DNA of 64,000 bases. Source: Owenia fusiformis (taxonomy: Eukaryota; Annelida; Polychaeta; Sabellida; Oweniidae). Position 1 is the stretch's first letter. Each line of letters starts with the position of its first letter. Below, piece by piece: positions 6,296 through 63,183 of this stretch. The DNA is taken from contig CAIIXF020000012.1 in assembly GCA_903813345.2 (NCBI GenBank), positions 5,623,318-5,687,317 of the forward strand, read 5' to 3'. Both the position numbers and the translations under genes were made by a program. The notes beneath the pieces were generated by a model. That model was given only the letters and a program-made list of their open reading frames with translations. It was not told the origin of the DNA and searched no databases.

Positions 6296-6299
6296 TGAA

Positions 6300-30800: not shown

Positions 30801-33800
30801 ATTGCTTCAATGTATTCTCTTAATTATGTAACTTAAATGTTATAGATGATCCCATCCATCGTTTCCTCCTCTGTCCTCATTTCCAGAAACAAAAAACTGA
30901 ATTTATACATGATTTATGTAGTAAATGTGATGCTCCTGTTGTGTCTCAGTACCTTAATTTCCCCCCACAAATGAAATTAAAGTGGATTCTTGGGGATGAT
31001 GTGTTTAGCATTTGGGGACACGACAATGGCTGGAATTTTGATGTTTGTACAAAAATATTTCTGCAAAAGGTGTATGTGGAACATGACACTGCGTGATTTT
31101 AGCCTATTTTAATGATTTTACTAGCTTATGTCTCATATTCCTCAACGGATTTAGTAAAAAATGTATTGTTTGTATACTACTTATATGTAATATTCACGCA
31201 CCTTTGAGTGCCACTGTTATAAAAGTGACTGTCAAATAAATAATAAATAATAAATAAATTAGGTGAAGCTCTGAAACCAGGAATGAACCAACTTTGTTCA
31301 AACATTATGGGACATCTGAACTCAAAAGGTCTATACCTTGTCCTACAAGGGGTGCTACATAAAGGACTGGCTAGAAGTAAACCCTGTTTCAAACATGCCA
31401 CAATGTCTGCTTTAGTAACCATAGCATTAAGGTAGGTAGTTAATCCCTTGAATACCAAGAGTGACAGATATAACAGTCAGCGAATTTTTCACTAAAATGG
31501 CTCTAACTTTGAGAAATTCTGTTCAATTTACACAAAATATGTATCAAATTAGTTTAATTTTTCAATGTTCAGTAATATTACCAAAAATTCCCAAAATTGC
31601 TTATTTTCAAAACTGATGACAACTAAAGCCTCAGTCACATTTGCTCAAAGGCAGCTGTATGGCAGCTGTAGCTTCACGAAATCGATATAGAAAACCTAGA
31701 ATATCATACTGCTAATCCTTATATTGTGTACTGTATATTTCTCTCGATTTTGGGAAGTTACGGCTGCCGTTCTGTTGCCGTAGATCAAATCTGACTGAAG
31801 CATGAGTGCAGCACTAAATAGCTTCAATTCTGGAGAGTCATCTGCTTTGATATAATTTCTATATGTGTTTCAGACCTCTACTTGCGGCCAACTTCTCCGA
31901 CAACCTCCTCAGTCTTTTTATTCTCCATATTATGTCTGTTCCTGGTGTGATATTCCATGTCAATGCTATAGCAAATGAGGTATGTTTGTACATATATAAG
32001 TAATCTATCCATCTATAGCTATTTCTATTTCATTTTGTAGGGGGATTGTACCATACACAGATTAAGTTACATCAGTTACTTTATACGATTTCAAAGTATA
32101 TTTTTAGTTTTTTTTTATTATAAAAATTGTCAATGTTTCAAGTTCATTTAATGTTTGATATGAATTACAAGGTTTTGAAATGTTTATCTACAGGGATGAC
32201 CTTTTCTGCATGCAGTATATCATATTACATTGTTTGGGTTTTAGGGTTCTCACTAGGCTTTTAGACTACAGAGAATCTCCGGAGTCTAATGTCTTTAGAC
32301 CCTCTTGCTCTAATAGCTCTAATAGAGTCTAATAGCTTTTCCGGAGTCTAATAGCTTTTCCGGAGTCTAATGTTACATTTTTATCACAAAAAACTGGATA
32401 CAAACAAGGAATAGGAAGTCAAAAACCTTTTAGAAATGTATATTGTGATTAGTAGTATTTTTAAATGTAGATATCTCTGATCTCACATGGGGGAGGAGTA
32501 GTTGTGATACCGTGAAAAATCTGGGATCTAAACTCTAAAAATTTCCTGGTGAGAATCCTGAATTCTCTTTTTTATTTTTTTTATTGACTAATCTTTGGAA
32601 GCTTTGGTCTGTTTTTTTCAATAAAGGCAAATTTTCTTTTTATCTGGTACCTTTTTAAGTGTATGATATTTCAGTGTACTGTCAATTATATTTCAGTGTA
32701 CTGTATTATATTTCAGTGAACTGAATTAACTTTCAGTGTACTGTATTATATTTCAGTGTATGATCCTGTTGATGCAGCAAAGAGTCTTCAAAAGATGCAT
32801 CGAACTAATGAGCAATGATCAAAGTACTCGCATCATCTTTCACTCACTGGAGGGGAACTATGCACTCTGCCTACTTGGTAAGTGGAACTATACACTTTGC
32901 CTACTAGGTAAGTGGAACTATGCACTCTGCCTACTTGGTAAGTGGAACTATGCACTCTGCCTACTTGGTATGTGAAACTATGCACTCCACCTACTTGGTA
33001 AGTGGAACTATGCACTCTGCCTGCTTGGTAAGTGGAACTATACACTTTGCCTACTTGGTAAGTGGAACTATGCACTCTGCCTACTTGGTAAGTGGAACTA
33101 TACACTTTGCCTACTAGGTAAGTGGAACTATGCACTCTGCCTACTTGGTAAGTGGAACTATGCACTCTGCCTACTTGGTATGTGAAACTATGCACTCCAC
33201 CTACTTGGTAAGTGGAACTATGCACTCTGCCTGCTTGGTAAGTGGAACTATACACTTTGCCTACTTGGTAAGTGGAACTATGCACTCTGCCTACTTGGTA
33301 AGTGGAACTATACACTCTGCCTACTTAGTAAGTGGAACTATTGCACTCTGCCTACTTGGTAAGTAGAACTATGCACTCTGCCTATTTGGTAAGTGGAACT
33401 ATGCACTCTGCCTACTTGGTAAGTGGAACTGTGCGCTCTGCCTACCTGGTAAGTGGAACTATGCACTTTGCCTATTTTGTAAGTGGAACTATGCACTCTG
33501 CCTACTTGGTAAGTGGAACTATACACTCTGCCTACTTAGTAAGTGGAACTATTGCACTCTGCCTACTTGGTAAGTAGAACTATGCACTCTGCCTATTTGG
33601 TAAGTGGAACTATGCACTCTGCCTACTTGGTAAGTGGAACTGTGCGCTCTGCCTACCTGGTAAGTGGAACTATGCACTTTGCCTATTTGGTAAGTGGAAC
33701 TATGCACTCTGCCTACTTGGTAAGTGGAACTGTGCGCTCTGCCTACCTGGTAAGTGGAACTATGCACTTTGCCTACTTGGTAAGTGGAACTATGCACTCT

Positions 33801-36800
33801 GCCTACTTGGTAAGTGGAACTATGCACTCTGCCTTCTTGGTAAGTGGAACTATTGCACTCTGCCTATTTGGTAAGTGGAACTATGCACTCTGCCTTCTTG
33901 GTAAGTGGAACTATTGCACTCTGCCTTCTTGGTAAGTGGGACTATGCACTCTGCCTACTTGGTAAGTGGAACTATGCACTCTGCCTTCTTGGTAAGTGGA
34001 ACTATTGCACTCTGCCTATTTGGTAAGTGGAACTATGCACTCTGCCTTCTTGGTAAATGGAACTATTGCACTCTGCCTATTTGGTAAGTGGAACTATGCA
34101 CTCTGCCTTCTTGGTAAGTGGAACTATGCACTCTGCCTTCTTGGTAAGTGGAACTATTGCACTCTGCCTATTTGGTAAGTGGAACTATTGCACTATGCCT
34201 ACTTGGTAAGTGGAACTATGCACTCTGCCTACCTGGTAAGTGGAACTATGCACTTTGCCTATTTGGTAAGTGGAACTATTGCACTCTGCCTACTTGGTAA
34301 GTGGAACTATTGCACTCTACCTATTTGGTAAGTGGAACTTAAGAATTCATAATTAAAGTGAATCTTTTAATAAGATATTTAGGTCTAGTTCACCTTTTAT
34401 GTAGTACAATTTTTCTCAATGTAATGTGCTGTATACAATATATGTTAACATACAATATCCTCATTGTAGCAAACCTCATCCATTTGGGCTCTGCAGAGAG
34501 TGTAACTTAAGAACTCATAATTAAAGTGAATCTTTTAATAAGATATTTAGGTCTAGTTCACCTTTTATGTGGTATAATTTTTCTAAATGTATTGTGCTGT
34601 ATACAAGATGTGTTAACATACAATATCCTTATTGCAGCAAACCTCATCCATTTGTGCTGTATATATGTGTTAACATACAATATTCTCATTGTAGCAAACC
34701 TCATCCATTTGTGCTGTATATATGTGTTAACATACAATATCCTTATTGTAGCAAACCTCATCCATCTGGGCTCTATATATGTGTTAACATACAATATTCT
34801 CATTGTAGCAAACCTCATCCATTTGTGCTGTATATATGTGTTAACATACAATATCCTTATTGTAGCAAACCTCATCCATTTGTGCTGTATACAATATGTG
34901 TTAATATACAATATCCTTATTGTAGCAAACCTCATCCATTTGTGCTGTATATATGTGTTAACATACAATATTCTCATTGTAGCAAACCTCATCCATTTGT
35001 GCTGTATATATGTGTTAACATTGAAACAGTTTTTTAAGTTCGAATCAAGTAACATAAAATTCTTAAAGTTAAAGTCCTAAACGTTTATTATTTCATTATC
35101 AAAATCCAATCTTTACATTGAGTTTAGTTTAATCAGTACATGTATGTTGTGCCGTAGTAAAAACTGTTCTGAAGATGATATTCTGAGATGATAATCAAGA
35201 AAAGAAAGTTCCACAGGGAAGGTTCCAAAAAGGAGGCGAATAATAATTTCCCATAATTACCAAATAAATAAACCAATAATGAACAAATTAAAGATAATGT
35301 CAAATTAAATCTACTGGACTTCCTAAACCTCCTTTAAATGGAGGCAAATGTTGATTCCCATGAGGAACCAACATTTGAACCAATACAAAGCCAAGTAGGT
35401 TATGTAATACACTAGAATATCCTGAACTAAAAAATCCTCCTTTATGGGAATTGGAACTTTCCTGATAGAAAAGACATAACAATATGAAAAGAGCCAAGAT
35501 TTTAATGTTATTTATGAATGATATCACGTATTGAGTGCAAATGAACTAAAGAGGAATAAAGAATAGAAATGATGTACATCAAATGTATAGAACAATAACA
35601 TATATCTTAAAACCTAAATCAATGTGATATAAAAATGAAGTTGTACCAAAATTTGATGTATATGAAAACCTAAACCCTGTTTCATTACCCCCAACTTAAT
35701 TAAAAGTGTTTGTCCTCAAACACAAAATATTTGTACAATAAACATTGTCAACTAAAATATTCAATAAAAAAAACAACGATGTTTCATTACCACCAACTTT
35801 GCAAATACAACAACGTTTTACAGAGTTTTATTACTCCATTTAATAACTGTTCTTCAAACGCATTAATATTTAATAAAGGTTACTTTTACAATTTTTGTTT
35901 CATTTTCTCAATGCAAAAGTATGCATGGTATGTTTTCTTAAAGCAGTATATCAGCAGTATAAAAGAATATGCATGGTTAAATAGTGATATTTGAAGTTGT
36001 AAAATATAAGGACTTAGTTACACATGTGTTGTTAAAAATTCACAATTGTTTACTATTCTTGTTTACTATGAAATGTATTGTTTACTATAAATTCAATTGT
36101 TTACTACAATTTCCTGGTTTCATGAATGTCATGTTATCCTAAAGTCAAAGGTTAGTAAAGTAGAACATGTTTATATTATTTAATGAAGTTACCAAGCAAC
36201 AGGAAAGCAGAATAAAAACAATGTTTCACCTCTAGCCTCTTATTCCAAACTTACCATACATATGCATTATGCAAAGTTACATACAAGCAGCCATTAGCGA
36301 TTCTTCAAATCGAATTCATTGTTAAGGTAAGATAATTTTTCTGTATAAAATGTTCTTGCCTAAAGCATTGGCAAGAGATACTTTTAAAACAAATTAACAT
36401 GAAATTGTATTTTGATAACATCTTGCAGCAGTTGACATTTTAATATTCAAGCAATGTGATGCACAATTGGGTAATATGGTTTCTTGTATATATCACATTC
36501 ATTTCACTAAACTTGTATGGTTGCACTTTCTGGGCATCATGGTGACATCTGGGGAACGATACATCTGTTGCAACATTATCTTCATATTAAAAGTACATCT
36601 TTTGGTTGAGACATGCACTGATACACTATCATGGGTAACATGGAACACGGGACGGCTACGACTGCACTCTGGCATTACGGGTTACTTCTCTGGGGCACGG
36701 GACATCTACGAATGCACTACCTGGCATTAAAATACTTCCCGGGGGTACGAACATCTACGAATGCACTACCTGGCATTAAAATACTTCCCGGGGATACGAA

Positions 36801-39800
36801 CATCTACAAATGCACTACCTGGCATTAAAATACTTCCCGGGGATACGAACATCTATGAATGCACTACCTGGCATTAAAATACTTCCCGGGGATACGAACA
36901 TCTACGAATGCACTACCTGGCATTAAAATACTTCCCGGGGATACGAACATCTACGAATGCACTACCTGGCATTAAAATACTTCCCGGGGATACGAACATC
37001 TACGAATGCACTACCTGGCATTAAAATACTTCCCGGGGATACGGACATCTACGAATGCACTACCTGGCATTAAAATACTTCCCGGGGATACGAACATCTA
37101 CATTTTAAACACTCAGTTTATATACATATTTACAGTGAGAAACAGTTTATATTCAATATCCAATTTCCATGTCCAAATAATTTATGTATAGTAATCCATC
37201 TTCTTTAAAGATTACTGTCAACGGGCCAATGAGTGCAGCTGACCTAACTGCTGGTGCAAAATTGTCAGAATTTCTAACTCCAACTTGATGAATTTTATTT
37301 TCATATGCCATTTTCGTAAAAATCATTCTTATTGAAGGTTATGGTGACTTTTGACTTCTTTATAACACAATATCAAGGGCAAAACATTGTTACTAATATG
37401 CAATGTCCATAAACGTTTTTTATGCCATCTTCCCGTAATTTTAAGTGGGGGAAGCATGACTAGATTTTTTACTCCATGAACATTATGATTGTTAGGTGTC
37501 GGTAAACATTCCACTAATAATTTCTAATGTTGATTCCCATGAGGAACCAACATTTGAACCAATAGAAAGCCAAGTAGGTTATGTAATACACTAGAATATC
37601 CTGAACTAAAAAATCCTCCTTTATGGGAATTGGAACTTTCCTGATAGAAAAGACATAACAATATGAAAAGAGCCAAGATTTTAATGTTATTTATGAATGA
37701 TATCACGTATTGAGTGCAAATGAACTAAAGAGGAATAAAGAATAGAAATGATGTACATCAAATGTATAGAACAATAACATATATCTTAAAACCTAAATCA
37801 ATGTGATATAAAAATGAAGTTGTACCAAAATTTGATGTATATGAAAACCTAAACCCTGTTTCAACATACAATATCCTTATTGTAGCAAACCTCATCCATC
37901 TGGGCTCTATATATGTGTTAACATACAATATTCTCATTGTAGCAAATCTCATCCATTTGTGCTGTATATATGTGTTAACATACAATATCCTTATTGTAGC
38001 AAACCTCATCCATTTGTGCTGTATATATGTGTTAACATACAATATTCTCATTGTAGCAAACCTCATCCATTTGTGCTGTATATATGTGTTAACATACAAT
38101 ATCCTTATTGTAGCAAACCTCATCCATCTGGGCTCTATATATGTGTTAACATACAATATTCTCATTGTAGCAAACCTCATCCATTTGTGCTGTATATATG
38201 TGTTAACATACAATATCCTTATTGTAGCAAACCTCATCCATCTGGGCTCTATATATGTGTTAACATACAATATCCTTATTGTAGCAAACCTCATCCATTT
38301 GTGCTGTATACAATATGTGTTAACATACAATATCCTCATTGTAGCAAACCTCATTCATCTGGGTTCTGCAGAGATGGAGGGTCTGGTTGAGAATACAAGT
38401 GGATTCATGGTGAATATACAAATCATTTCTTTTTAATTTATTTTAAACTAGACATTTCATGCCTCTGTGTTTTTAAGAAGTATACATGTACATGTAGTTT
38501 CCTCTCTGGCGTACATTTTGAATCACTTCCTAAAGTTTTCCTGATTTTATCTCAGATCTTTCATGTGCTTCTGAAAGTAACACAAGAGAATTGAATATTT
38601 TACATTCATCATTACTCACAATATGTTTTAAATAAAATAAGTTATTATATTACAGTCAAGGTAGCAATTAAAGCAAGTCAAGTTAATTGAAGTTAAAGGC
38701 ACCGCCCCTTTAATAAATTAATAAAGGTAGTGAATTAAAGTAAAGTTAATCAGAATGCCCCTTAATGAACTATTCAAGTAAATCAAGGTTAAAGGCACTG
38801 CCCTTTTAGTGAATCAAAGTAAAGTTAATCAGAGTTAAAAGTAATGCCCCTTTAATGAATTAATAAAGTTAATTAGAGTTAAAGACATTGTCCCTTTAAT
38901 GAACTATTTATTTAAATTAGTTAAAGGCACTTCCATCTAATGCATTAAAGTGCAGTTAATTGAAACCTTGTGTTTATTTTCAGTATGTTGTGACTAGGCT
39001 GCTGGAGAATTGCCAGCAATATGTACAGAACAAGAAGTCAAACTTGACTCACTGGCATCCTGTTCTTGGATGGTTCTCCCAACAGACAGACAACAGGTGA
39101 GAAAGGCATTTTGTTTGTCTTCTTGGATGGTTCTCCCAACAGACAGATAACAGGTGAGAAAGGGCATTTTGTTTGTCTTCTTGGATGGTTCTCCCAACAG
39201 ACAGATAACAGGTGAGAAAGGGCATTTTGTTTGTCTTATTGGATGGTTCTCCCAACAGACAGATAACAGGTGAGAAAGGGCATTTTGTTTGTCTTCTTGG
39301 ATGGTTCTCCCAACAGACAGATAACAGGTGAGAAAGGGCATTTTGTTTGTCTTCTTGGATGGTTCTCCCAACAGACAGATAACAGGTGAGAAAGGGCATT
39401 TTGTTTGTCTTCTTGGATGGTTCTCCCAACAGACAGATAACAGGTGAGAAAGGGCATTTTGTTTGTCTTCTGTTGACCTTTAGGTAACAACCATTCATAG
39501 GGGTTTCGGTAAAATGAAATTTAGCAGTCCATTTTCACACCCTAGGAGCTAATATTTAGTCAATTATAGTTCAGTTCAGATTACTTAGGGAATGTGAATT
39601 TTAAAGGTCCCTACTCAAGGGACTAAATACAATGTCAAATCCCACCCCCTTCGACAATACTGAATGTCAAATATCTTTGAATTGTGCATTGTGTCCACAT
39701 GTAAATGTATGTGACATAAATTGTGTCTCTATTTTAGTCTACATGAATCTATGCCATATGTGACATAAATTGTGTCTCTATTTTAGTCTACATGAATCTG

Positions 39801-42800
39801 TGCCATATGTGACATAAATTGTGTCTCTATTTTAGTCTACATGAATCTATGCCATATGTGACATAAATTGTGTCTTTATTTCAGTCTACATGAATCTATG
39901 CCATATGTGACATAAATTGTGTATCTATTTCAGTCGTTGTGAATCTATGCCATATGTGACATAATTTGTGTCTCTATTTTAGTCTACATGAATCTGTGCC
40001 ATATGTGACATAAATTGTGTCTCTATTTCAGTCTACATGAATCAATGCCATATGTGACATAAATTGTGTCTCTATTTCAGTCTACATGAATCTATGCCAT
40101 ATGTGACATAAATTGTGTCTCTATTTTAGTCTACATGAATCTGTGCCATATGTGACATAAATTGTGTATCTATTTCAGTCTACATGAACCTATGCCATAT
40201 GTGACATAAATTGTGTCTTTATTTCAGTCTACATGAATCTATGCCATATGTGACATAAATTGTGTATCTATTTCAGTCGTTGTGAATCTATGCCATATGT
40301 GACATAATTTGTGTCTCTATTTTAGTCTACATGAATCTGTGCCATATGTGACATAAATTGTGTCTCTATTTCAGTCTACATGAATCAATGCCATATGTGA
40401 CATAAATTGTGTCTCTATTTCAGTCTACATGAATCTATGCCATATGTGACATAAATTGTGTCTCTATTTTAGTCTACATGAATCTATGCCATACATGACA
40501 TAAATTGTGTCTCTATTTCAGTCGTTGTGAATCTATGCCATATGTGACATAAATTGTGTCTCTATTTCAGTCTACATGAATCTATGCCATATGTGACATA
40601 AATTGTGTCTATATTTCAGTCTACATGAATCTATGCCATATGTGACATAATTTGCGTCTCTATTTCAGTCTACATGAATCTATGCCATATGTGACATAAA
40701 TTGTGTCTCTATTTCAGTCTACATGAATCTATGCCATATATGACATAAATTGTGTCTCTATTTCAGTCGTTGTGAATCTATGCCATATGTGACATAAATT
40801 GCATCTCTGTTTCAGTCTACATGAATCTATGCCATATATGACATAAATTGTGTCTCTATTTCAGTTGTTTTGAATCTATGCCATATGTGACATAAATTGT
40901 GTCTCTATTTCAGTCTACATGAATCTATGCCATATGTGACATAATATGTGTCTCCATGTCAGTCTACATGAATCTATGCCATATGTGACATAAATTGTGT
41001 CTCTATTTTTTTCTACATGAATCTATGCCATATATGACATAAATTGTGTATCTATTTCAGTCTTTGTGAATCTATGCCATATGTGACATAAATTGTGTCT
41101 CTATTTCAGTCTACATGACTCTATGCCATATGTGACATAAATTGTGTCTCTGTTTCAGTCTACATGAATCTATGCCATATGTGACATAAATTGTGTCTTT
41201 ATTTCAGTCTACATGAATCTATGCCATATGTGACATAAATTGTGTCTCTATTTCAGTCGTTGTGAATCTATGCCATATGTGACATAAATTGCGTCTCTAT
41301 TTCAGTCTTTGTGAATCTATGCCATATGTGACATAAATTGTGTCTCTATTTCAGTCTACATGAATCTATGCCATATGTGACATAAATTGTGTCTATATTT
41401 CAGTCTACATGAATCTATGCCATATGTGACATAATTTGCGTCTCTATTTCAGTCTACATGAATCTATGCCATATGTGACATAAATTGTGTCTCTATTTCA
41501 GTCTACATGAATCTATGCCATATGTGTCATAAATTGTGTCTCTATTTCAGTCTACATGACTCTATGCCATATGTGACATAAATTGTGTCTCTGTTTCAGT
41601 CTACATGAATCTATGCCATATGTGACATAAATTGTGTCTTTATTTCAGTCTACATGAATCTATGCCATATGTGACATAAATTGTGTCTCTATTTCAGTCG
41701 TTGTGAATCTATGCCATATGTGACATAAATTGCGTCTCTGTTTCAGTCTACATGAATCTATGCCATATATGACATAAATTGTGTCTCTATTTCAGTCGTT
41801 TTGAATCTATGCCATATGTGACATAAATTGTGTCTCTATTTCAGTCTACATGAATCTATGCCATATGTGACATAATATGTGTCTCCATGTCAGTCTACAT
41901 AAATCTATGCCATATGTGACATAAATTGTGTCTCTATTTTTTTCTACATGAATCTATGCCATATATGACATAAATTGTGTATCTATTTCAGTCGTTGTGA
42001 ATCTATGCCATATGTGACATAAATTGCGTCTCTATTTCAGTCTTTGTGAATCTATGCCATATGTGACATAAATTGTGTCTTTATTTCAGTCTACATGAAT
42101 CTGTGCCATATGTGACATAAATTGTGTCTCTATTTCAGTCTACATGAATCTATGCCATATGTGACATAAATTGTGTCTCTATTTCAGTCTACATGAATCT
42201 ATGCCATATGTGACATAAATTGTGTCTCTATTTCAGTCTACATGAATCTATGCCATATGTGACATAAATTGTGTCTCTATTTCAGTCTACATGAATCTAT
42301 GCCATATGTGACATAAATTGTGTCTCTATTTCAGTCTACATGAATCTATGCCATATGTGACACAGCAACTTCAAATGTTATGGCACATACGTATGATTCG
42401 CCTCTTGTTTGCCGATCTATTGTCATTCTGTGACATCCAGAAACGCATTGAATCTCAGAAAGAAAACACAAAATCACCAACTAAAAGTAAGTATGGCTCT
42501 CTATTTACATTCATCAGGGGTTTCATTAGCACCATATAACAGGCAACTGTTGTAGTTCTTTTAGTCAAAATTGCCTGTTGTTTTGAGGGATTTTCAACTA
42601 TTTTAACAATTTTGCATGTTGTTTTCATTTGTTTGCCAATCTTTGGAATCTTTGAGATCACGGAGACAGGTTTAATTTAAGCGCGCAATGATAATTAATA
42701 ACATCATATTTTTATTTGTGCTAAATAATGATTTAAGATGATGTCACAATTTGAAAACGTCATGTATAATCAATACAGTTCATGTAAACAAGTACATCTA

Positions 42801-51800: not shown

Positions 51801-54800
51801 ATCAAACAATACGAAAAATTACATGTATGAATAGGGACCCCATGTCAAGAATTTTTTCAAAATGTTCAACCCATTTACTCAAAAGAGAATCTTCTTTTTC
51901 TGATTTTTATTGCATGAAAAGATTATTTAACAAGGGGTCTAAAACTTATTTAATGTATTGTAGAAAAAACTTTTGATATGCTTGAATTAAGAAAAACAAG
52001 ATCCTCTTTTTTAGAAAATAAGCCTTACATTTTTGAAAAAGTGCCAAGGTGCCATTAAAGACTCAAATTATCTTCTATTTGATAACATTTTTGAGATATG
52101 TGCACAATCTTCTAGTCAAACATTGATTTATACTGTTAATATCAGCTTGGTTTCAATCTGTTAGGATTCTTCAACACTTAGAAAAAGCTAAATCCCCATT
52201 AAAACTTAAAAAGTTTTTTTCACTCTTGAGGCTAATAATTACTAAATTAGGATTCCAATATTGAGGATAATAAGATCACCTAGATACACGTCAGTGGTGT
52301 TTTAAATTAATCAAAATTGAAATATTTGATAAATCAAGAAATTAAGCATTTGTGCCAGTTTTGTCTATCATATATTCAGCCCAACCAAAATGACTGCTGC
52401 CATCTATTTGTCCGTGCATACACAAAATCGTCGATTGGGGGTCATAGAGTGGTATGGTATCTGTTGTTATCAAGCTACAATCTCTTAGAAGATAATTGAA
52501 TAGATATTCAAATTAAAATGTCAGTCCAGTTGGTCATATAGAACTGTCAATCATTATAATTGGAGAGTCAATCACCTGAAAGCACTGTCAGTCATTCTAT
52601 AGCAATTGCAATAATTTTAGAGTGATTCATATTCTGTTATAATTTGTATTCAGGAAGTTTGATCAAAGCAATGGTAAACTTCATTTGTTGCATTGTAGAA
52701 TGAAATTAATTAACTACTTTGCATGTAAATGATATTCTTAAATTTGCTTTTTGGAAATATTAGAGAGTTTTCGCACGGCGTGAAAGTACAACTTATAATG
52801 TATACTTATACTTATAAGCAAACGTACAAGGTGTTTCATAATGTGGGCTTTTCGTCAGGAAAGATCTTCTCAAACTGTAATAAATAAAGGTCAAAGGGAT
52901 GTCATTTGTTCTTTTATGAATTTTATCATGTTTAGTTGATCCAAATGTGTTTGTCTAGAATAAAATAGGCTCATATATAGTACGTATGTTATAGACCTGT
53001 CTCTTCTCAAATTGACTTTTTGGAGATGCTCGTTATGAAACACCCTGTATGTCATTTGTTGAGCTACTGAATGGGTTGTTTCCAGGAATTGCTAGAACCT
53101 ACTGGTTTGATTGGTGTTTCAAATTGATGGTTAAAGTATTTGATTGGATACTGTTCCTACTCAGCCTATTATTTTTTAAAAAATGCTTGCGGTCAATTGT
53201 TCCACACACATTCGGGTAAAGCTTTATACGGAGATCCAACTGTATACGTTTATCATCTCGTATATATACCGTTTTGTTAGTTCATTGAACTAATACTGAT
53301 CATGAAAACTTTGAAATAATCAACTTGTTTGTGTAATGACTGACTTTAAAGGATCATGACTCACTTTAAAGGATCGTGTTTATAATACACTACAACTACT
53401 AGGACCCGGAATCAAGCATTTAATTATAATGAGCATAATATGCATGTGCAGATGACAGTGCATTCACAGTCTCTAGTTGATGGAGCTTCTCTATATCGGG
53501 AATAGTTATGTTCCATTAAGTGCAATTTGAAATTGATTTTAGTAAATATAATAGTTCGACATGACCCTTTAAAGTATACATATAAGTTGTACTTTCACTT
53601 ATGTGCGAAATCTCTCTATTAAATTTAACAAAACTTTTAAGAAATATGTACATTATATATTTCTATTAGAGTGTCTAATTATGTCAAGACTACAAGTTGT
53701 GGGACATGTTGTTATAGTCTCCAACCTTTAAGACAGGTGTTGGTGCTCAGCGGACGGCAGTCTGTGTTTGTTTGTACAAATGACATTGTATCTGTAACAA
53801 ATGGCAGGTGGTGGCAGTTTGTATGTTAATGCCTTGTTTTTTGGTAATGATTTGAAATATTACTTTATAGTCTCTTTCTTGGAAGTAATGTGAATCATTT
53901 GTAAAATTGAAATGATCTAAATCTTTTGGTAGTAAGATCAAACAAAGGGATCCTATGTTAGCTTCAACATGCAGCTTGTGCATTATTCTACACTGTATTT
54001 TTTATTTCAGATCGTTTCTTAAAGGTTATAGAGAAGGCCTAGTCTGAGTCCTCTAGTAGTAAGATCAAAGAGAGTGATCCTATTTTAGCCTCCACATGTA
54101 GTGCATGTACATTATTTTACAACAGTGCTTGTATATTATTCTACACTGTACTTTCTTTATTTCAGATCCTTTCTTAAAGGTTAAAGAGAAAGCCCAGTCT
54201 AAGTCTTCTAGTAGTAAGATCAAAGAGAGTGATCCTATTTTAGCCTCCACATGTAGTGCATGTACATTATTTTACAACAGTGCTTGTATATTATTCTACA
54301 CTGTACTTTCTTTATTTCAGATCCTTTTCTTAAAGGTTAAAGAGAAAGCCCAGTCTAAGTCTTCTAGTAGTAAGATCAAAGAGAGTGATCCTATTTTAGC
54401 CTCCACATGTAGTGCATGTACATTATTTTACAACAGTGCTTGTATATTATTCTACACTGTACTTTCTTTATTTCAGATCCTTTCTTAAAGGTTAAAGAAA
54501 AGGCCCAGTCTAAGTCTTCTAGTAGTAAGATCAAAGAGAGTGATCCTATTTTAGCCTTCACATGTAGTGCTTGTACATTATTTTACAACAGTGCTTGTAC
54601 ATTATTCCGAGCTGCACTTGTTATTTCAGATCCTTTCTTTAAGGTTAAAGAAAAGGCCCAGTCTAGGTCTTCTAGTAGTAAGATCAAACAGAGATTTTAC
54701 TTCAACATGCAATGCTTGTGCATTATTCTACACTGTACATGTACTTTCTTTATTTCAGATCCTTTCTTAAAGATTATAGAGAAGGCCCAGTCTGAGTTCT

Positions 54801-57800
54801 CTAGTAGTAAGATCAAACAGAGGGTTCCTATGTTAGTTCAACCTGCAGTGCTTGTATATTATTCTACACTGTACTTTCTTTATTTCAGATCCTTTCTTAA
54901 AGGTTAAAGAGAAAGCCCAGTCTAAGTCTTCTAGTAGTAAGATCAAAGAGAGTGATCCTATTTTAGCCTCCACATGTAGTGCATGTACATTATTTTACAA
55001 CAGTGCTTGTATATTATTCTACACTGTACTTTCTTTATTTCAGATCCTTTCTTAAAGGTTAAAGAGAAAGCCCAGTCTAAGTCTTCTAGTAGTAAGATCA
55101 AAGAGAGTGATCCTATTTTAGCCTCCACATGTAGTGCATGTACATTATTTTACAACAGTGCTTGTATATTATTCTACACTGTACTTTCTTTATTTCAGAT
55201 CCTTTCTTAAAGGTTAAAGAAAAGGCCTAGTCTAAGTCTTCTAGTAGTAAGATCAAAGAGAGTGATCCTATTTTAGCCTCCACATGTAGTGCTTGTACAT
55301 TATTTTACAACAGTGCTTGTACATTATTCCGAGCTGCACTTGTTATTTCAGATCCTTTCTTTAAGGTTAAAGAAAAGGCCCAGTCTAGGTCTTCTAGTAG
55401 TAAGATCAAACAGAGATTTTACTTCAACATGCAATGCTTGTGCATTATTCTACACTGTACATGTACTTTCTTTATTTCAGATCCTTTCTTAAGATTATAG
55501 AGAAGGCCCAGTCTGAGTTCTCTAGTAGTTTATGTTTTATGTTTATGTTTCTTTATTTGGACCATAAATTGATCATACAAATACATACTGGTATATATTA
55601 AGTAAAATAAATAATATTACAATTTTACAGTGATAGTAAAGGTTGGTGGTGGTGTACAGAACATGTAATTATATGCCCCTTGGGTTTGATGATTGCTTTA
55701 ATGCATCCCTGTGCATTTCATAAATAGCATGTATTGTCCTCAATATTAATAGACAGTCCCTATCTCCAAACTGACTACTGTCCAGGATAAGTCTTATCTT
55801 TTCTAAATCAGTGCCATATAGGTTACTGTTCTCAATAATATTGTTTAATTGATGACTTAAATGCTCAACTGCCTGGCAGTGAAATAATAAGTGTTGCAGT
55901 GTCTGCACTGCCCTATGACAAAGTGGACATGTCTCACTATCTTTATATTTTTCGCAAATGAGTGATGAGTTTCCACACAAAAGTCTCACCAGGGTTATAC
56001 ATGGTCTAATTAGGTATGGGTCATTTTTTGCCAATATCCACCACTTAATGGGTTTGATAACCTTAACAACATTTCTGAACGTACTGAGAGACCTGTACAT
56101 CATACAACTAGACCTCCATTTTTCCAACTCATGTCTGTGCAACACATCCTTAACAATACTTTTCCACTGTGATTTCGAGACAGATACTCCATAGAAAAGC
56201 CATTGCATTACATGATCTATTAAGTTGAACCTTTCAGCTATGTTAAGAATATCCCAGATAGGAGAATGACAATTGTTCTTTTTGTGGGTAAGTGTGCTGT
56301 TCAACCATTGACACACTCTTATGATGGCAATTTTCTTATAGACAACATCCACTGGTAACATGAGTAACTGCCATAAAAACATGAGCTTTCTTTGTAAGAT
56401 TATAGTTGTAATATTATTCCACCCTAATGGTGCTAAACATGCACTGTTTGCCGTATTAATAGGAAGACCCTGCAGTTGTTTCGCTATTTTAATATGTGTG
56501 TTTTCATAGATATTCATTTCTTTTTCAGTCAGAACAATCGCTTCTACTCCATATGTCACTGATGGCACTACAATACTCCAATATATGTTTGATGCAGTAA
56601 GGGGATTATACCTTACAGTGTCCATGGATACTAGTCCAATCCCTGCATTCATTGTCATGCGTCCAGTCCTACATTTTTCATTGACATATGGTGTATTATC
56701 TCCAGTTGATGACAAGTCGACTCCAACATGTTTACACACATTGGTTATTTCCAATACAGTCCCTGATAGTGTTAGTTCCTTAGGCTTTTGTGTTTCATGA
56801 GTATTCGTGGGTGGGAAGTAAAGAACTTGTGTTTTATTTGGGTGGTACCTATATCTCCATTTTTTACTATGGTTAAATATAATATTCAGCAATTTTTGCA
56901 TGTTATTAGCATCTATAGCTACCAGGGTCATGTCATCAGCATATGCTGGGCATGTAAGCTTCAAGTCCCCAATTCCAGCTCCTAGTCCAGAAGCAGCTAG
57001 ATCCTCCAATAGGCCAGATGTGAATCGCATATAGAGGTACATCGACAGGACCCCGCCCTGATGGACTCCCTGTAATACATTAAATGGTTGTGATAATTTA
57101 TCTCCTATTCTGATGACACATCTGTAATTATTATACCATATATTGATAATTCTCCACATTTTTCCATGTATACCCTGCTTGTAAAGAATATACATGAGAC
57201 CCTGTATCCAGACAGAATCGAATGCTTTCCTCACGTCCACTGCTGTAACGTAACACTTCCCCCCTCTTTCAAGATTGTAGGCAATTGTCTCTCGGAGAGT
57301 GACAGATGTTTGTAAACACGAACAGTGTAGTTTATTACCACCTTGAAGTTCATGTATATCCTTTACTCGCTTGTTTTGCATAGAGCGCATAAGTAATAAT
57401 CTTTCAAACAACTTACTAAACTGTATCATCAATGTTATGCCCCTATGATCATCTTTATTAAGTGGGTCCTTCTGGCCCCCTTTAAAAAGTGGGATTAAGA
57501 TTCCAATTTTAAAATATTCTGGAACATATTCTTGATATATGATACAATTCATCAAGATTGTAAGGATTTCTAATACACAAGGGCCACCATATTTTATATG
57601 TTCCGAAGTGATATTATCATGTCCTGGGGCTCTTTTAGGTTTCATTAGATGTACCGCCTGCTCTAATTCTGTATTTGTGAAAGGGTCCTCCATATTGTCA
57701 TCTCCATTGCTTTTTGAAGACTCCATCATGTTAATCAGTTCATTTTCAATTTGTTGCTTGTGTACATCATCATACAGAATGTCATTTTTTGGGGTAACCA

Positions 57801-58713
57801 ATTCAGAAAAATATGTTCTCCATTCATCCAGAATCTCTCTATCTTCATTAAGTATCTGTCCATTGTCATTTCTTATTGGGTTGGTCTTCACTGGTGTTTT
57901 TCTGCGTCTTTTCACTAGGTACCAGAATGTTTTCAAGTCTATATTATCATCATCTATCTGCTTTTGACATTCACGCTCATATTTATACCGTTCTCTCCTT
58001 AACAGCCTTCTGAATTGTTGCTTGGCTTCTCTGTACTGTTTGTATGTCTGGTTTTGTTGATCCATGGGTTTCCCTTCTTTAAGCCATTGTTTATATTTAA
58101 AACGTTTTGCATTAAGAAACTGTTTTAGTTCAGGTGACCAGAACGGCTTTAAATGTTTGTTATACCTCTGTTTTGGTATGGTGGCCTCTGCCCCAGATAG
58201 CAAAATATTACCTAAACTTCTGAAATAGTATTCTATATCTTCGTTTCTTAATGTACCATGTTCAACCTTCATGTTCAATTTTTCAATTAAGGGAGTTATC
58301 TCTGTTGTCATTTTCTGTGTATATGTGCCATTTATATCTTCATTTGTCATTTTTGACCATGCAATGCAAGGCTTTGGAGTAATTAGATTAGCATGGAGGT
58401 CCGCCATATCAATGTCAATGTTAATGTACAAAGGCAGATGGTCTGACAAATTTTCTAAACATTCATCAATAATTCTACATTCTTTGACATTCTGAAGAAT
58501 AGAATTCGACACGAGACAATGATCTATATACGATCTACCAATGCCTTCTTTGACAAAAGTATATCTTGGACCTTAAGATCAAAGTAAGATCAAACAGAGG
58601 GTTCCTATGTTAGTTCAACCTGCAGTGCTTGTACATTATTCTACACTGTACTTTCTTTATTTCAGATCCTTTCTTAAAGGTTATAGAGAAAGCCCAGTCT
58701 AAGCAAGCTGATC
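27879..58713 (+). CDS. UBE3B: HECT-type E3 ubiquitin ligase UBE3B, N-terminal part (gene runs off the right edge)
   Basis: Nine exons fit in phase: 27879-28238, 29716-29820, 30341-30437, 31263-31431, 31874-31979, 32757-32877, 38345-38409, 38984-39096 and 42335-42486, about 429 residues. Similarity to UBE3B is clear by eye: AREER near the start, an IQ motif ([16 protein letters not shown], residues 34-49), [44 protein letters not shown]...[43 protein letters not shown] and [17 protein letters not shown] tenth exon class, 48 bases, phase 1 to 1, is repeated from 54011 and may match the KSLLKRAFQKSAS region of the human protein. The catalytic HECT domain is not in the window. UBE3B attaches ubiquitin to substrates and is calmodulin-associated through its IQ motif. 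Exon 1 starts at the ATG at 27879, giving MFNQS like the vertebrate MF- start. Introns 6 and 8 are mostly splice-site minisatellites. Confidence 0.85.
28489..28815. mobile_element. MITE with CAGGGTTCTCA ends, copy 1 (nested)
   Basis: Begins CAGGGTTCTCAAAGGCTTTT and ends CCTGGTGAGAACCCTG. ATGTG directly flanks both sides, a likely 5-base target duplication. A related copy lies at 32240-32562. Confidence 0.75.
28842..29226. mobile_element. MITE with TCAGGGTCTGACCTTA ends (nested)
   Basis: The left end TCAGGGTCTGACCTTAAC is inverted at the right as GCTAAGATCGAACCCTGA. Inside are inverted GCTACC/GGTAGC and GGAGCAAATT/AATTTGCTCC blocks. Confidence 0.65.
32240..32562. mobile_element. MITE with AGGGTTCTCA ends, copy 2
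   Basis: Related to 28489-28815 through TTTTAGACT.CAGAGA, AGCTTTTCCGGAGTCTAA, ACAAACAAGGAATA and AAATTTCCTGGTGAGAA. It contains an extra short tandem of TAATAGCTCTAATAG and CTTTTCCGGAGTCTAATAG units. It lies in intron 5 of UBE3B. Confidence 0.7.
32666..32757 (+). repeat. UBE3B: Small minisatellite on the UBE3B exon 6 acceptor
   Basis: Five closely spaced copies of TTTCAGTGTA (one TTTCAGTGAA), separated by 16-25 bases of CTGTATTATA-type sequence. The last copy is the acceptor of exon 6 (TTTCAG then TGTATGATCC). Each copy therefore repeats the intron end plus the first four exon bases. Confidence 0.7.
32854..34340 (+). repeat. UBE3B: Donor-site minisatellite of UBE3B exon 6, 30-bp unit, about 49 copies
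   Basis: The unit is the last 24 bases of exon 6 (coding NYALCLL plus the split G) followed by the first six bases of intron 6, GTAAGT. The first copy is the exon end itself, with its donor at 32878. Further donor copies follow at 32908, 32938, 32968 (GTATGT) and onward. Most units are 30 bases; some have one extra T in CTATTGCACTC. Sets of units recur: the variant TGTGAAACTATGCACTCCAC returns after 210 bases. Use of the next three donors would extend the protein in frame by 10, 20 or 30 residues before a stop. Confidence 0.93.
34337..34640 (+). repeat. 169-bp tandem duplication between the donor array and acceptor array
   Basis: AACTTAAGAATTCATAATTA at 34337 and AACTTAAGAACTCATAATTA at 34506 start two copies, each ending with a junction copy of the exon 7 acceptor (at 34470 and 34638). 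The first copy retains more of the exon 7 start, GGGCTCTGCAGAG, than later array units. Confidence 0.75.
34638..35030 (+). repeat. UBE3B: Acceptor-site minisatellite of UBE3B exon 7, block 1, 57-bp unit
   Basis: About seven copies of a 57-base unit made of the intron end (ACATACAATATCCTTATTGTAG) plus about 17 bases of exon 7 start (CAAACCTCATCCATTTG) and linking TGCTGTATATATGTGTTA. There are no stop codons in the exon frame, because 57 is 19 codons and each reads ANLIHL...VLTYNILIV. Separated by about 2.8 kb from block 2, which carries the real exon. Confidence 0.9.
35349..35684. repeat. Direct repeat S, copy 1 (about 335 bp)
   Basis: Starts TGTTGATTCCCATGAGGAAC and ends AAACCTAAACCCTGTTTCA. 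Nearly identical to 37528-37862; one difference seen is ACAAAG against AGAAAG. It lies inside intron 6 of UBE3B, downstream of acceptor block 1. Confidence 0.9.
36690..37105. repeat. 49-bp minisatellite in UBE3B intron 6
   Basis: Nine copies at exact 49-base spacing (36703, 36752, 36801, 36850, 36899, 36948, 36997, 37046, 37095) of CATCTACGAATGCACTACCT, then GGCATTAAAATACTTCCCGG GGATACGAA. A degenerate start near 36640 has GGACGGCTACGACTGCACT. No match to a known exon border of the gene. Confidence 0.9.
37528..37862. repeat. Direct repeat S, copy 2
   Basis: Copy of 35349-35684 whose end joins straight into the exon 7 acceptor array. This suggests that a block spanning S and the array was duplicated, or that sequence was inserted between two halves of one array. 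Confidence 0.9.
37863..38362 (+). repeat. UBE3B: Acceptor-site minisatellite of UBE3B exon 7, block 2, ending in the real exon
   Basis: Nine junction copies at about 57-base spacing (one 61). The last, at 38345, runs on into the full exon 7 ([17 protein letters not shown].. to the donor after 38409). Upstream units alternate TTCTCATTGTAG with CCTTATTGTAG and GTGCTGTATA with GGGCTCTATA, so there is a second-order pattern. Confidence 0.92.
38640..38965. repeat. Degenerate tandem repeat, about 60-bp unit
   Basis: Five or so loose copies of AGTTAATCAGAGTTAAAGGC plus ACTGCCCCTTTAATGAATTA in intron 7 of UBE3B, ending just before the exon 8 acceptor at 38984. The unit does not contain that acceptor. 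Confidence 0.6.
39065..39472 (+). repeat. UBE3B: Donor-site minisatellite of UBE3B exon 8, 58-bp unit, 7 copies
   Basis: Each unit is the last 31 bases of exon 8 (coding GWFSQQTDN plus a split codon) followed by 27 intron bases beginning GTGAGAAAGG. Copy 1 is the real exon end, with its donor at 39097. Copies 2-7 differ from it in the exon part only by GAC to GAT, a synonymous change. In frame, the intron part starts with a TGA stop, so only the first donor keeps the protein open. Confidence 0.93.
39700..42362 (+). repeat. UBE3B: Acceptor-site minisatellite of UBE3B exon 9, 49-bp unit, 54 copies in register
   Basis: The unit is 21 intron-end bases (TAAATTGTGTCTCTATTTCAG) plus the first 28 bases of exon 9 (coding LHESMPYVT). 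The first junction is at 39738 and the real one at 42335: 2597 bases, exactly 53 x 49. Variants include TTTTAG acceptors, GTCGTTGTGAATC exon starts and two units where CAG is replaced by TTT (about 41010 and 41941, 931 bases or 19 units apart). Using any but the last acceptor meets a TAA directly after VT. Confidence 0.95.
42779..45960. repeat. Segmental duplication, copy 1
   Basis: From CATGTAAACAAGTACATCTA at about 42780 to about 45960 the sequence is matched, with scattered substitutions and indels, by 59324-63183. It includes a degenerate region rich in AAAATGGC.GCCAT blocks (43200-43680) and exons 8, 7 and 6 of the nested minus-strand gene. The left border is clear; the right border of copy 2 is hidden by the gap. 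Confidence 0.88.
44076..51476 (-). CDS. Secreted protein with Cys-rich modules and an ITIH-C-like C-terminal domain, nested in a UBE3B intron
   Basis: Eight exons in phase: 51476-51416, 50965-50855, 48330-48230 (or to 48113), 47120-46778, 46122-46027, 45729-45577, 45117-44767 and 44287-44076, giving about 475 residues (514 with the longer exon 3). Exon 1 is a signal peptide ([20 protein letters not shown]). Exon 2 ([18 protein letters not shown]...) and exon 5 ([20 protein letters not shown]) are Cys-rich. Exon 4, 114 residues, is unrecognised. Exons 6-8 read [10 protein letters not shown]...[15 protein letters not shown], then [12 protein letters not shown] and [20 protein letters not shown]. 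They follow the order of the inter-alpha-trypsin inhibitor heavy chain C-terminal domain (GDPH, FQLEVTPQNI, THGLLGQF in the family), a VWD-like fold. The VIT and VWA domains of true ITIH proteins are absent. The gene lies antisense within UBE3B intron 9. Confidence 0.75.
45100..45350 (-). repeat. Acceptor-site minisatellite of nested-gene exon 7, about 55-bp unit
   Basis: On the minus strand, TTTCAGAAATTGTAGCTAAG (intron end plus exon 7 start) is the real junction at 45117. Similar junctions precede it at about 45167, 45270 and 45315 (forward ATTTCTGAAACAAG, ATTTCTGGAATAAG), each followed by TTGTTGTCCCATTTACTGAG. The duplicate gene copy has the same array at 61825-62070. Confidence 0.8.
47357..48052 (-). 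mobile_element. LINE fragment (C-terminal part of reverse transcriptase ORF)
   Basis: The minus-strand frame down to about 47783 encodes [20 protein letters not shown] and later [20 protein letters not shown], then [20 protein letters not shown]. This is typical of the region after the RT domain in Jockey/CR1-like non-LTR elements. ACAAAACATCAAGTTAATGT flanks both ends (about 48065 and 47340), consistent with a target duplication of roughly 26 bases inside the 117-bp repeat. Confidence 0.7.
48053..48330 (-). repeat. 117-bp tandem unit with repeated splice donor in exon 3 of the nested gene
   Basis: Exon 3 begins at 48330 ([15 protein letters not shown]) and reaches a donor GCG|GTAAGT at 48230. 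The following 117 bases repeat the unit in frame (..[20 protein letters not shown]...) to a second donor TTG|GTAAGT at 48113. A third copy starts and is interrupted near 48052 by a LINE fragment. Both donors leave phase 0, so 39 residues can be added without frame change. Confidence 0.75.
48480..49222. repeat. About 64-bp minisatellite interrupted by a MITE
   Basis: Six loose units with CCTCAAGGTGAATTACTGGC, ATTTAGTTACTTTATTGG and TTTAACCTTTCACTCCAGTG, in an intron of the nested gene. One unit lies before and the rest after the insertion at 48567-48892. Confidence 0.7.
48567..48892. mobile_element. MITE with AAGGATGCAGTACC ends
   Basis: The left end AAGGATGCAGTACCAGGTC and right end GACCCGGTACTGCATCCTT are inverted. 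The interior is non-coding. It is inserted within the minisatellite; TTTAA/TTAA context at the edges suggests a TA-rich target. Confidence 0.8.
49601..50559 (-). pseudogene. LINE fragment split by an insertion
   Basis: The upstream part (50559-50314) encodes [20 protein letters not shown] then [20 protein letters not shown]; the downstream part (about 49870-49601) encodes [40 protein letters not shown]. Together they are the conserved C-terminal tail of a Crack/Daphne/CR1-type LINE. The segment between (about 49911-50313) is not part of it and recurs at 62247-62727. Confidence 0.75.
49911..50313. mobile_element. About 0.4-kb repeat inserted in the LINE remnant
   Basis: From CCAGCCATAGTTTTCTCCTG to GTGCTTATATATT, matching 62247-62727 with indels. 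No terminal inverted repeats are seen. It separates two LINE coding parts that are normally contiguous. Confidence 0.7.
51490..52760. other. UBE3B intron, no gene seen
   Basis: Upstream region of the nested minus-strand gene, so its promoter should be within the first few hundred bases. No recognisable coding exon; short open frames are AT-rich and without family resemblance. Confidence 0.5.
52763..53625. mobile_element. Inverted-repeat transposon with AGAGAGTTTTCGCAC ends, carrying a nested MITE
   Basis: The left end AGAGAGTTTTCGCACGGCGT plus GAAAGTACAACTTAT is inverted at the right as ATAAGTTGTACTTTCAC... GTGCGAAATCTCTCT. Inside, about 52828-53048, is a second element with ends ACAAGGTGTTTCATAA and TTATGAAACACCCTGT. 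Confidence 0.75.
54011..55530 (+). repeat. UBE3B: Tandem array of a 48-bp exon-like unit with both splice sites (UBE3B exon 10 class)
   Basis: Eleven copies begin at 54011, 54166, 54321, 54477, 54630, 54759, 54889, 55044, 55199, 55352 and 55481, each preceded by TTTATTTCAG or TTATTTCAG and ending in TCTAGTA|GTAAGA. The exon part is 48 bases, phase 1 to 1, coding [16 protein letters not shown] or variants. Seven copies are open (2, 4, 5, 6, 7, 8, 10); copies 1 and 9 have GCCTAG stops, and copies 3 and 11 have one-base indels. Spacing is 155, 155, 156, 153, 129, 130, 155, 155, 153, 129, so the 153-129 pair recurs after 722 bases. Collinearity and phase with exon 9 support UBE3B; family similarity of this exon is modest. 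Confidence 0.8.
55530..58575 (-). mobile_element. Non-LTR retrotransposon (LINE), 5'-truncated, intact reading frame
   Basis: On the minus strand the frame is open from about 58572 ([20 protein letters not shown]) to the stop at 55669, about 967 codons. It starts within the AP-endonuclease domain ([20 protein letters not shown]), continues through reverse transcriptase ([33 protein letters not shown], catalytic YADDMTLVA) and ends with a Cys-His motif ([18 protein letters not shown]). The 3' end carries a tail complementary to TTTATGTTTTATGTTTATG at 55531. It sits antisense in the UBE3B exon array, between copy 11 and copy 12. The lack of any stop implies a recent insertion. Clade not decided; an I/Jockey-group relative is likely. 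Confidence 0.9.
58580..58713 (+). repeat. UBE3B: Last copy of the exon-like unit, after the LINE
   Basis: Resumes AGTAAGATCAAACAGAGG and continues to a twelfth acceptor (TTTATTTCAG, exon start 58666) coding [13 protein letters not shown]. It then diverges (CAAGCTGATC) so the GTAAGA donor is missing. It may be a broken copy, or the edge of the array. Confidence 0.7.
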
Positions 58714-59320: not shown

Positions 59321-60295
59321 ACGTTCATGTAAACAAGTACATCTAATCCCCATATAAAACACTGGCCTACGTGACATGTACTAACATCTTCAAACGGTAA
59401 TATGGAAATTGCTTCTGTATTCTGTTCTGTATACTCTTTACCTGCTTAATGAGACAGTTGTATCTTCAAATCTTCAAACCTTAGCCAAGTAGATTAGAAT
59501 CTCTGGACACTTTTGTAAATAGTTTTTACAAGCAATTATGTTTGTGTATCTCAAATTTTGTCTTCCCAATTTCAGTCATAAATTACGTCAATATAGCGTG
59601 CAAACTTTAGGTAAATGTTGTCATTTCCAGATGCCCAAACGTGTCAAGAACACATAGGCACTTGAATGATCTTGATTTAACAGCATGGTGCAGAGAAATT
59701 GTAATTTTACTGAGTGGCTTCACGAAAAAACAATCTTTCTTATAAGCCACCTTAAGAAGGAGTTTTCAAGATGGCACATGGATTTCAAAATGGCTGCCAT
59801 TTATTTTTGTTAAAAAATGTAATATTTGATAACGCAAATACCAGTTGAAGGATTTTGTTCAAATTTCATATTCTGATGACAGCTAGATTCAAAATGGTGC
59901 CATTTTTCTTAAAGAAACAAATAAATCAAATACCCATGGATGGATTTGATTTAGATTCTATATGCTGCACTGATGCTTTGAGATAAGGGAGCAGATGCTC
60001 CAGAAGAAATGTTCAAAATGGCCACTATTTATCAAAATTGCTGTCATTTATCAGTAACAATGTAATCTTTAATAACCCAAATACTAGTTGACAATTTGGT
60101 TCAAATTTTATATTATTTTATATCATGATCACTTAGGGACAGAGGAGCTTAGACTGCTCAAGAGGAAAAATGGCCGCCATTTTTCAGGAAAACATAATAT
60201 TTGATAACTCAAATACCAGTACAGATTTGGGTCAATACTCAAATGCTGATACCCATGGACAAAGGAGTTTCAAGATAACCACTATTTATCAAAAT

Positions 60296-60512
60296 ATATT
60301 TTGTTCGGGGGGATTTACTACTCCTTGGAGTTACTGTTTTTCTAGTTGTGGGATTTGCTACTCCTTGGAGTTGCTGTTTTTCTAGTTGTGGGATTTGCTA
60401 CTCATTGGAGTTGCTGTTTTTCTAGTTGTGGGATTTGCTACTCCTTGGAGTTGCTGTTTTTCTAGTTGTGGGATTTGCTACTCCTTGGAGGTGCTGTTTT
60501 TCTAGTTGAAAA
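60296..60512. repeat. 40-bp minisatellite, five copies
   Basis: Unit GGGATTTGCTACTCCTTGGA plus GTTGCTGTTTTTCTAGTTGT. The homologous place in copy 1 (43725-43785) has only two partial units. A similar GGGATTTGCTACACTCTGGAG lies at 47360, at the 3' edge of the LINE fragment, so the unit may derive from a LINE tail. Confidence 0.85.
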
Positions 60513-60791
60513 AAGGACAACACATTCATATTTTGGTTGTGGCCTAAAGGTCCTAAACAAGACGGCATATTTATTTCAGTGTTTAAGAAATATCTATCCT
60601 ACACAAATGTTATTGTTCCAGATATACAATTAAATTGAATTCTTTAAATACTTAAAGGTGCTTCTATACTTGCTATGTACCCACCCTCATCATGCCTTGA
60701 ATCAGCTGTCATCAAGGGCGGCACAAATTATTTAAAACATTACTATACACTGTCTATTTTGATGCAATGGAGTTATTTTTCCAATTTTTTT

Positions 60792-62951: not shown

Positions 62952-63183
62952 CTGAAAAGAAGGATTTTATCATATTTTGTCTGTTAAAATGTGTGAAAGT
63001 TCTTGCTTATAAAGCAAAATATCAATATCAATTAAAGCAAAATTGCCAATTATACAATTGATTATATACAATACAGAGAAGTTCCTTCCATCTGTCTTTC
63101 AACAACATCCAGACAAAACTCCTAGTTTTGCTTCTTTTTCGGAAAAACTTTTTCACCATATGATCCCGTCATATTTTGGCATT

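Follow-up and report, generated by a model that had tools for sequence, protein, structure and literature searches.

Tandem arrays across exon-intron borders in a UBE3B-like gene and in other genes of the annelid Owenia fusiformis

Minisatellites whose repeat unit lies across an exon-intron boundary, termed mirages, have previously been described in single amphioxus genes (Adh3, TnC, the globins BflGb6 and BflGb9, and PGBD5) and are suspected to be general in cephalochordates [PMC3087553, PMC3902484]; PGBD5 was added, and TnC is cited, in the second of these papers. It has been proposed that introns may be gained by way of mirages [PMC3087553]. In human paralogues that lie in segmental duplications, variable internal tandem repeats with units of about 30 bp, present about four times, have been reported at exon-intron boundaries [PMC2812944], and in a potato RdRp gene the gain of an intron has been ascribed to a tandem duplication that multiplied splice-competent sequence [PMC4974935]. 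A search of the open-licence literature found mirages reported for no annelid, which does not imply that no such report is in print; the Owenia genome paper does not mention minisatellites, and its one use of "tandem repeats" concerns LTR elements [PMC9977687].

The DNA considered here (the window) is a stretch of 64,000 nucleotides of the Owenia fusiformis assembly GCA_903813345.2 (contig CAIIXF020000012.1, positions 5,623,318 to 5,687,317, forward strand). Its plus strand carries a gene of which nine exons were mapped by their GT-AG borders (Table 1), giving a single open frame of 429 aa. The sole Pfam match of this frame is an IQ motif, and a PDB search with the gene gave no relevant match. 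We call the gene UBE3B-like, after the identification made in the original prediction and a presumed resemblance to the human UBE3B protein. The locus gave nine matches in the assembly, all on contig C12, and is represented by one haplotype only. The annelid erythrocruorin-linker domain PF16915 matches the assembly at three places, all on C6 (best E 5e-7), whereas mitochondrial COX1 gave no match.

Table 1. Features of the window (positions count from its first nucleotide; a slash marks a splice border, and TRF copy numbers follow the unit length)
Feature	Position	Strand	Basis or detail
Exon 1, UBE3B-like gene	27879-28238	+	GT-AG mapping, open frame
Exon 2, UBE3B-like gene	29716-29820	+	GT-AG mapping, open frame
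Exon 3, UBE3B-like gene	30341-30437	+	GT-AG mapping, open frame
Exon 4, UBE3B-like gene	31263-31431	+	GT-AG mapping, open frame
Exon 5, UBE3B-like gene	31874-31979	+	GT-AG mapping, open frame
Exon 6, UBE3B-like gene	32757-32877	+	GT-AG mapping, open frame
Exon 7, UBE3B-like gene	38345-38409	+	GT-AG mapping, open frame
Exon 8, UBE3B-like gene	38984-39096	+	GT-AG mapping, open frame
Exon 9, UBE3B-like gene	42335-42486	+	GT-AG mapping, open frame
Exon 6 acceptor array	32660-32760	+	TRF, 20 bp x 4.9, ...TATATTTCAG/TGTAC...
Exon 6 donor array	32854-34339	+	TRF, 30 bp x 49.2, unit GGAACTATGCACTCTGCCTACTTG/GTAAGT
Exon 7 acceptor array, first part	34608-35021	+	TRF, 57 bp x 7.2, TTATTGTAG/CAAACCTCATCC
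Insert splitting exon 7 acceptor array	35022-37863	.	2,842 bp
49-bp array within the insert	36646-37101		TRF
Exon 7 acceptor array, second part	37863-38358	+	TRF, 57 bp x 8.6, enters exon 7
Exon 8 donor array	39063-39471	+	TRF, 58 bp x 7.1, ...AGATAACAG/GTGAGAAAGG
Exon 9 acceptor array	39708-42362	+	TRF, 49 bp x 54.2, ...CTATTTCAG/TCTACATGAATC
155-bp array ("exon 10" of the original prediction)	53974-55415	+	TRF, x 9.7, TTTCAG/ATCCTTTC in copies
Reverse-transcriptase element, open frame	55669-58572	-	Pfam RVT_1, E 8.9e-24; inserted in 155-bp array
155-bp array, resumed after the element	58585-58713	+	
ITIH-C-terminus-like exon, acceptor array	45090-45347	-	TRF, 51 bp x 5, TTTCAG/AAATTGTGG
ITIH-like exon, acceptor array, second duplicate copy	61812-62071	-	TRF; aligns unit for unit with 45090-45347

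Five exon borders of this gene are crossed by tandem arrays, as seen both with TRF and by direct reading, and both types of border are duplicated, namely the donors of exons 6 and 8 and the acceptors of exons 6, 7, and 9. Each unit takes in some exon sequence, the splice signal, and some intron sequence, all of it the gene's own. In all five cases the copy that is joined to the exon is a terminal unit, the first for donors and the last for acceptors; at the exon 6 acceptor the functional copy is the last. In the exon 6 donor array all 49 aligned copies (49 of 49) keep the GT, and in the exon 9 acceptor array 52 of the 54 that could be aligned keep the AG. The insert that splits the exon 7 array appears transposon-like because it has 8-bp terminal inverted repeats (TGAAACAG and CTGTTTCA) and because ACAT is repeated at its borders. 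The 155-bp array further downstream has the acceptor-like TTTCAG/ATC at 12 places and, judged from these letters, is probably the junction array of a tenth exon, although the putative exon gave no Pfam match and no homology backs it as an exon. Consequently, of the six junction seeds originally proposed, the five at the borders of exons 6 to 9 are confirmed, and the sixth is only probable. The statement that border minisatellites had been reported at an amphioxus Adh locus was also right, these being the mirages named above [PMC3087553, PMC3902484].

The arrays of Owenia resemble the amphioxus mirages in that their units join an exon's own edge to the intron edge, lie at either 5' or 3' borders, and repeat the splice signal. 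The ranges of unit length overlap as well, being 10-72 bp in amphioxus Adh3 and 150-160 bp in BflGb6 [PMC3087553], compared with 20-260 bp here. Since a mirage is defined by a unit that lies across an exon-intron boundary, and such units are found at five edges of the UBE3B-like gene and in other genes, the term applies; that the host is not a cephalochordate is a difference in distribution and lies outside the definition. The present arrays differ in that they occur in an annelid, in many genes, and in up to 54 copies. The human repeats are likewise boundary minisatellites, and cryptic splice sites and the possible origin of new introns have been connected with them, but they belong to recent primate paralogues and, in the available passages, are not described as built on a working splice junction [PMC2812944]. 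The potato case shares the multiplication of splice-competent sequence by tandem duplication [PMC4974935], whereas no new intron was seen with the arrays here. Finally, ordinary intronic minisatellites, which are common in the same genes, are similar in period, copy number, divergence, and apparent origin by slippage. Unlike them, however, the junction arrays have units in which a splice site is combined with coding sequence, and their terminal unit forms part of a working exon.

It might be argued that such arrays are artefacts of assembly, and there is some evidence that the assembly is imperfect near this locus. No HECT exons downstream of the UBE3B-like gene on C12 were present among the genome-wide HECT matches listed, and none were seen when the open frames of 40 kb fetched on C12 were read by eye. 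HECT exons with the terminus LRYAINSNTGFELS are instead found on an unplaced 25-kb contig (L043, C281:1-7500). This terminus is presumably similar to the C-terminus of UBE3B. The 3' half of the gene is therefore probably on C281, misplaced in the assembly. Against an artefact, almost every array has units that differ from one another (column identity averaging 0.88-1.00), a like architecture is seen in other genes of this genome and in amphioxus, and one array, at an ITIH-like exon, is present twice in register. An artefact is thus very improbable, and the arrays themselves are real.

The twice-present array lies within a segmental duplication (window positions 42778-45936 and 59323-63183) that carries a piece of an ITIH-like gene on the minus strand. 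The similarity of the exon to ITI_HC_C is weak (E 5.6e-6 for the open frame and 1.3e-5 for the exon alone), and the scores of 26.5 and 25.4 bits fall slightly under the curated cut-off of 27. The duplicated segments are 93.2% identical over their longest piece (1.8 kb), and the five units of one array align one to one, without gaps, with the five units of the other. Because the units align in this way, the array predates the duplication and its copy number has not changed since. A 40-bp intronic repeat of the same duplication has five copies at 60310-60508, but fewer near 43725. This difference is what would be expected if seeds arose everywhere, with no special seeding, and those that touch an exon, being half under selection, were held in place and could re-expand while purely intronic arrays decayed. 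Such a process would account for long persistence and also for a modest excess of arrays at exon edges; as a cause of the residual excess described below, it is plausible. However, the comparison is a single one, made within one species, and as a general explanation we consider it possible but not likely.

The singling out of the UBE3B-like gene in the original prediction is not supported, given the occurrence of junction arrays in other genes of the same genome. Thirty-seven HECT and myosin loci were selected by family rather than by repeats (151 kb with arrays collapsed, with 120 exons found by HMM). Arrays are common in these loci, 31 of them having a TRF score of at least 90; the count leaves out L002, a paralogue of L001, and L011, which overlaps L004, as well as arrays that score under 90, among them one of 17 bp that lies at a donor called in L029. 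Ten of the 31 overlap a recognised exon junction (L010, L026, L032, L037, L038, L042, L079, and three in L076). Homology supports the exon at the array in seven: HECT in L010 (1.1e-7) and L042 (7.6e-9), myosin in L026 (1.4e-9), L032 (0.0033), L079 (2.1e-5), and the third array of L076 (1.3e-12), and UBE3A in L038 (7.9e-4, PDB). The L037 array adjoins an exon-like frame only, whose best PDB match (E 0.65) is taken as chance. In L076, the array at 719-1789 lies at a recognised junction that has no Pfam match, and the array at 1-581 lacks homology support, its exon being expected to fall in an unfetched gap.

Arrays were also chosen by a donor motif. Among the matches listed, 15 arrays of GGTAAGT lie on C1, and ORFs from 10 of the 15 were given to Pfam. 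An exon of a known family ends at the array in 7 of these 15, namely Muted/BLOC1S5 (5.9e-15), DCAF17 (L048; 0.001, below the cut-off), MBT (7.2e-33), NIF phosphatase (4.3e-6), Ssl1 (6.4e-7), and UPRTase (6e-8) by Pfam, and WDR35 (L052; 1.2e-11) by PDB. Three others (L047, L050, L051) are coding-like with no match, and a PDB search with the exon peptides of L051 and L073 also gave none. As controls, 15 arrays of the reversed heptamer TGAATGG were fetched, and ORFs from 10 of them were given to Pfam; 2 of the 15 adjoin an exon of a known family, and 8 that were tested had no match. The controls are therefore not free of junctions, since L062 has a K319L-like PKD exon (5.2e-8) on the acceptor side and L068 a histone deacetylase exon (2.5e-4, below Pfam's cut-off) on the donor side. 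In total, homology-supported junction arrays are observed at 16 loci outside the window (seven HECT/myosin, seven GGTAAGT, and two control), of which L032, L048, L068, and L079 are below Pfam's cut-off.

Whether borders are struck more often than chance allows, which was the test set by the original prediction, has an answer that depends on how exons are counted. For exons listed by HMM, 4 of the 31 arrays overlap a junction compared with 2.7 expected (P 0.28), and the overlap is close to chance. For all recognised exons, the 10 overlaps exceed the 5.4 that are expected when the number of junctions is doubled to allow for unseen exons (P 0.022); tripling the number raises the expectation to 7.8 (P 0.21), and using the HMM junctions alone lowers it to 2.7 (P 1e-4). 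With the 23 arrays that have at least 3 copies, the HMM-listed overlap is 4 against 2.1 (P 0.14), and the recognised overlap is 10 against 4.2 (P 0.0018), 6.0 (P 0.031), or 2.1 (P 4e-6). In exons 1-9 of the UBE3B-like gene, 5 of 6 seeds overlap a junction where 0.75 would be expected, with a P of 1.3e-4 that is uncorrected for the choice of a striking window and could arise from a search through thousands of windows. For this test each array was collapsed to one unit and the 2,842-bp insert was removed; the six seeds omit the insert's own 49-bp array, a duplication (168 bp x 2) that adjoins exon 7, and any array with a TRF score below 100.

A genome-wide heptamer test, in which triples spaced 32-62 bp were counted per 100 single sites, gives an excess. 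GGTAAGT gave 2.44, compared with 1.29 for TGAATGG, 0.73 for GAGTTAG, and 1.26 for GATTGAG; TTTTCAG gave 0.68 compared with 0.25 for its reverse, a value inflated by a dispersed repeat family. Overall, arrays contain splice-like heptamers 1.4-3.4 times as often as they contain permuted heptamers. When distinct arrays are counted among the matches listed, the donor excess is 1.4-1.6-fold (22.7 compared with 14.0, 16.6, and 13.8 per 10,000 singles), the numbers being small and the counts (15; 16 or 19; 19) having been read by eye. The raw triple counts (1371 for the donor, 1254 for its reverse) had suggested that the donor excess was flat, a result overturned by division by the single-site counts. 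The dispersed family, which has internal TTTTCAGTACAT-type repeats and is found at C1:293555, C1:1625795, C1:6231120, and elsewhere, inflates the counts of the acceptor heptamer. The apparent excess at junctions is modest, and exon edges may be about 1.5-2 times as prone to carry arrays as other intron positions.

An excess of this kind, together with the five seeds within one gene, is what would be predicted if R-loops, paused polymerase, or bound spliceosomes provoked replication errors and so made the borders true hotspots. Several results do not favor such seeding. The count for HMM-listed exons is not significant, and 5' and 3' sites are equally affected: by our own reading, the cases that were picked without a splice motif (five UBE3B-like edges, the ITIH-like exon, ten HECT/myosin arrays, L062, and L068) comprise nine donors and nine acceptors. 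Furthermore, an array of 33 bp x 4.6 in L078 (reverse complement, 6183-6337) includes a HECT gene's stop codon (HECT 1e-16 for the exon), and in L043 a weak 83-bp x 1.8 array begins 5 bp 3' of the stop codon. Because of these two arrays, the edge at which an array forms need not be a splice site, and arrays are not confined to splice borders. Another array of L078 borders on a weakly HECT-like exon (2.3e-4) at its donor, the donor itself being uncopied. Junction arrays have a higher mean GC (0.394) than other arrays (0.326), as expected since their units contain exon.

Nor are the splice columns clearly better conserved than others across units. In 16 arrays, with the working terminal units included, the pooled P was 0.26 for the core and 0.03 for AG/GT, figures that keep a mis-specified row for L010, whose string marks no AG. 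In the L010 array itself, the word TTTTTCA is followed by A in 10 of 14 cases and by G in 4 of 14, and because 10 of the 14 words have no G, lost AGs are evidently tolerated. Given the near-chance overlap with HMM-listed exons, the equality of donors and acceptors, the covered stop codon, and splice dinucleotides that are not clearly retained, the idea that splicing drives the arrays, which the original prediction had raised, finds no support, and splice- or transcription-linked seeding is judged unlikely.

The same observations bear on whether the spare sites are used, or are selected as redundant splice sites, for the control of splicing, or as a supply of new introns. At exon 7 the 57-bp unit is in frame, and the frame stays open along the array and on into the exon (ORF 37807-38436); at exon 6 the 30-bp unit keeps the frame over a few copies (ORF 32730-32975); and intron gain has been proposed both from mirages [PMC3087553] and from the human boundary repeats [PMC2812944]. 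On the other hand, splice cores are not clearly retained above other columns, several units (20, 49, 58, and 155 bp) are not multiples of three, and the AG is missing in 10 of the 14 L010 words. Use or selection of the spare sites is accordingly quite improbable.

Taken together, these results favor, as the probable explanation, mirages in the amphioxus sense: ordinary minisatellite growth that began astride exon edges and has been tolerated, since the unit attached to the exon remains intact. In this model, a founding tandem duplication straddles the edge of an exon, where a short direct repeat present in both exon and intron would allow slippage or unequal exchange to duplicate the stretch between. 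Short matches, TATGTGACA at exon 9 and GGAACT at the exon 6 donor, were read by eye between the start of the unit and the letters that follow the last unit; they fit slippage, which needs such direct repeats. The unit joined to the exon would still work, the extra copies would all be intronic, and selection would then tolerate growth within the intron but remove growth within coding sequence, leaving the spare splice sites as by-products. The arrays are of a kind known from amphioxus, and they look like ordinary repeat growth that has caught exon edges, rather than like a product of splicing. Despite the modest excess at edges, a splice-specific process is not needed. It should be noted, however, that the residual excess counts against plain tolerance, which alone would not lift exon edges above intron interiors.

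A bolder reading is that, in annelids as in lancelets, some process linked to the exon border makes exon edges true hotspots at which minisatellites arise or survive. We regard this as rather doubtful, but if it were true, genomes would be continually provided with duplicated splice sites as raw material for the evolution of introns and alternative exons. In any case, because many genes of one annelid carry mirages, the frequency of mirages, their mutation rate, and their use in the gain of introns or exons become measurable genome-wide. The finding also carries a warning, since gene models in such genomes may choose the wrong one among dozens of near-identical splice sites.

Some minor observations were also made. 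In L039 (reverse complement, 1300-1510) the sense strand of a degenerate 29-bp array shows donor motifs resembling GGGTAAGTTACC, with no recognisable exon at the edge of the array. Seventeen matches of equal score to HECT positions 234-284, spread over several contigs, probably reflect a dispersed repeat with a HECT-like piece. At C9:37986009-37994334, twelve adjacent matches fall on one stretch of the myosin head (about positions 18-84), as for mutually exclusive alternative exons.
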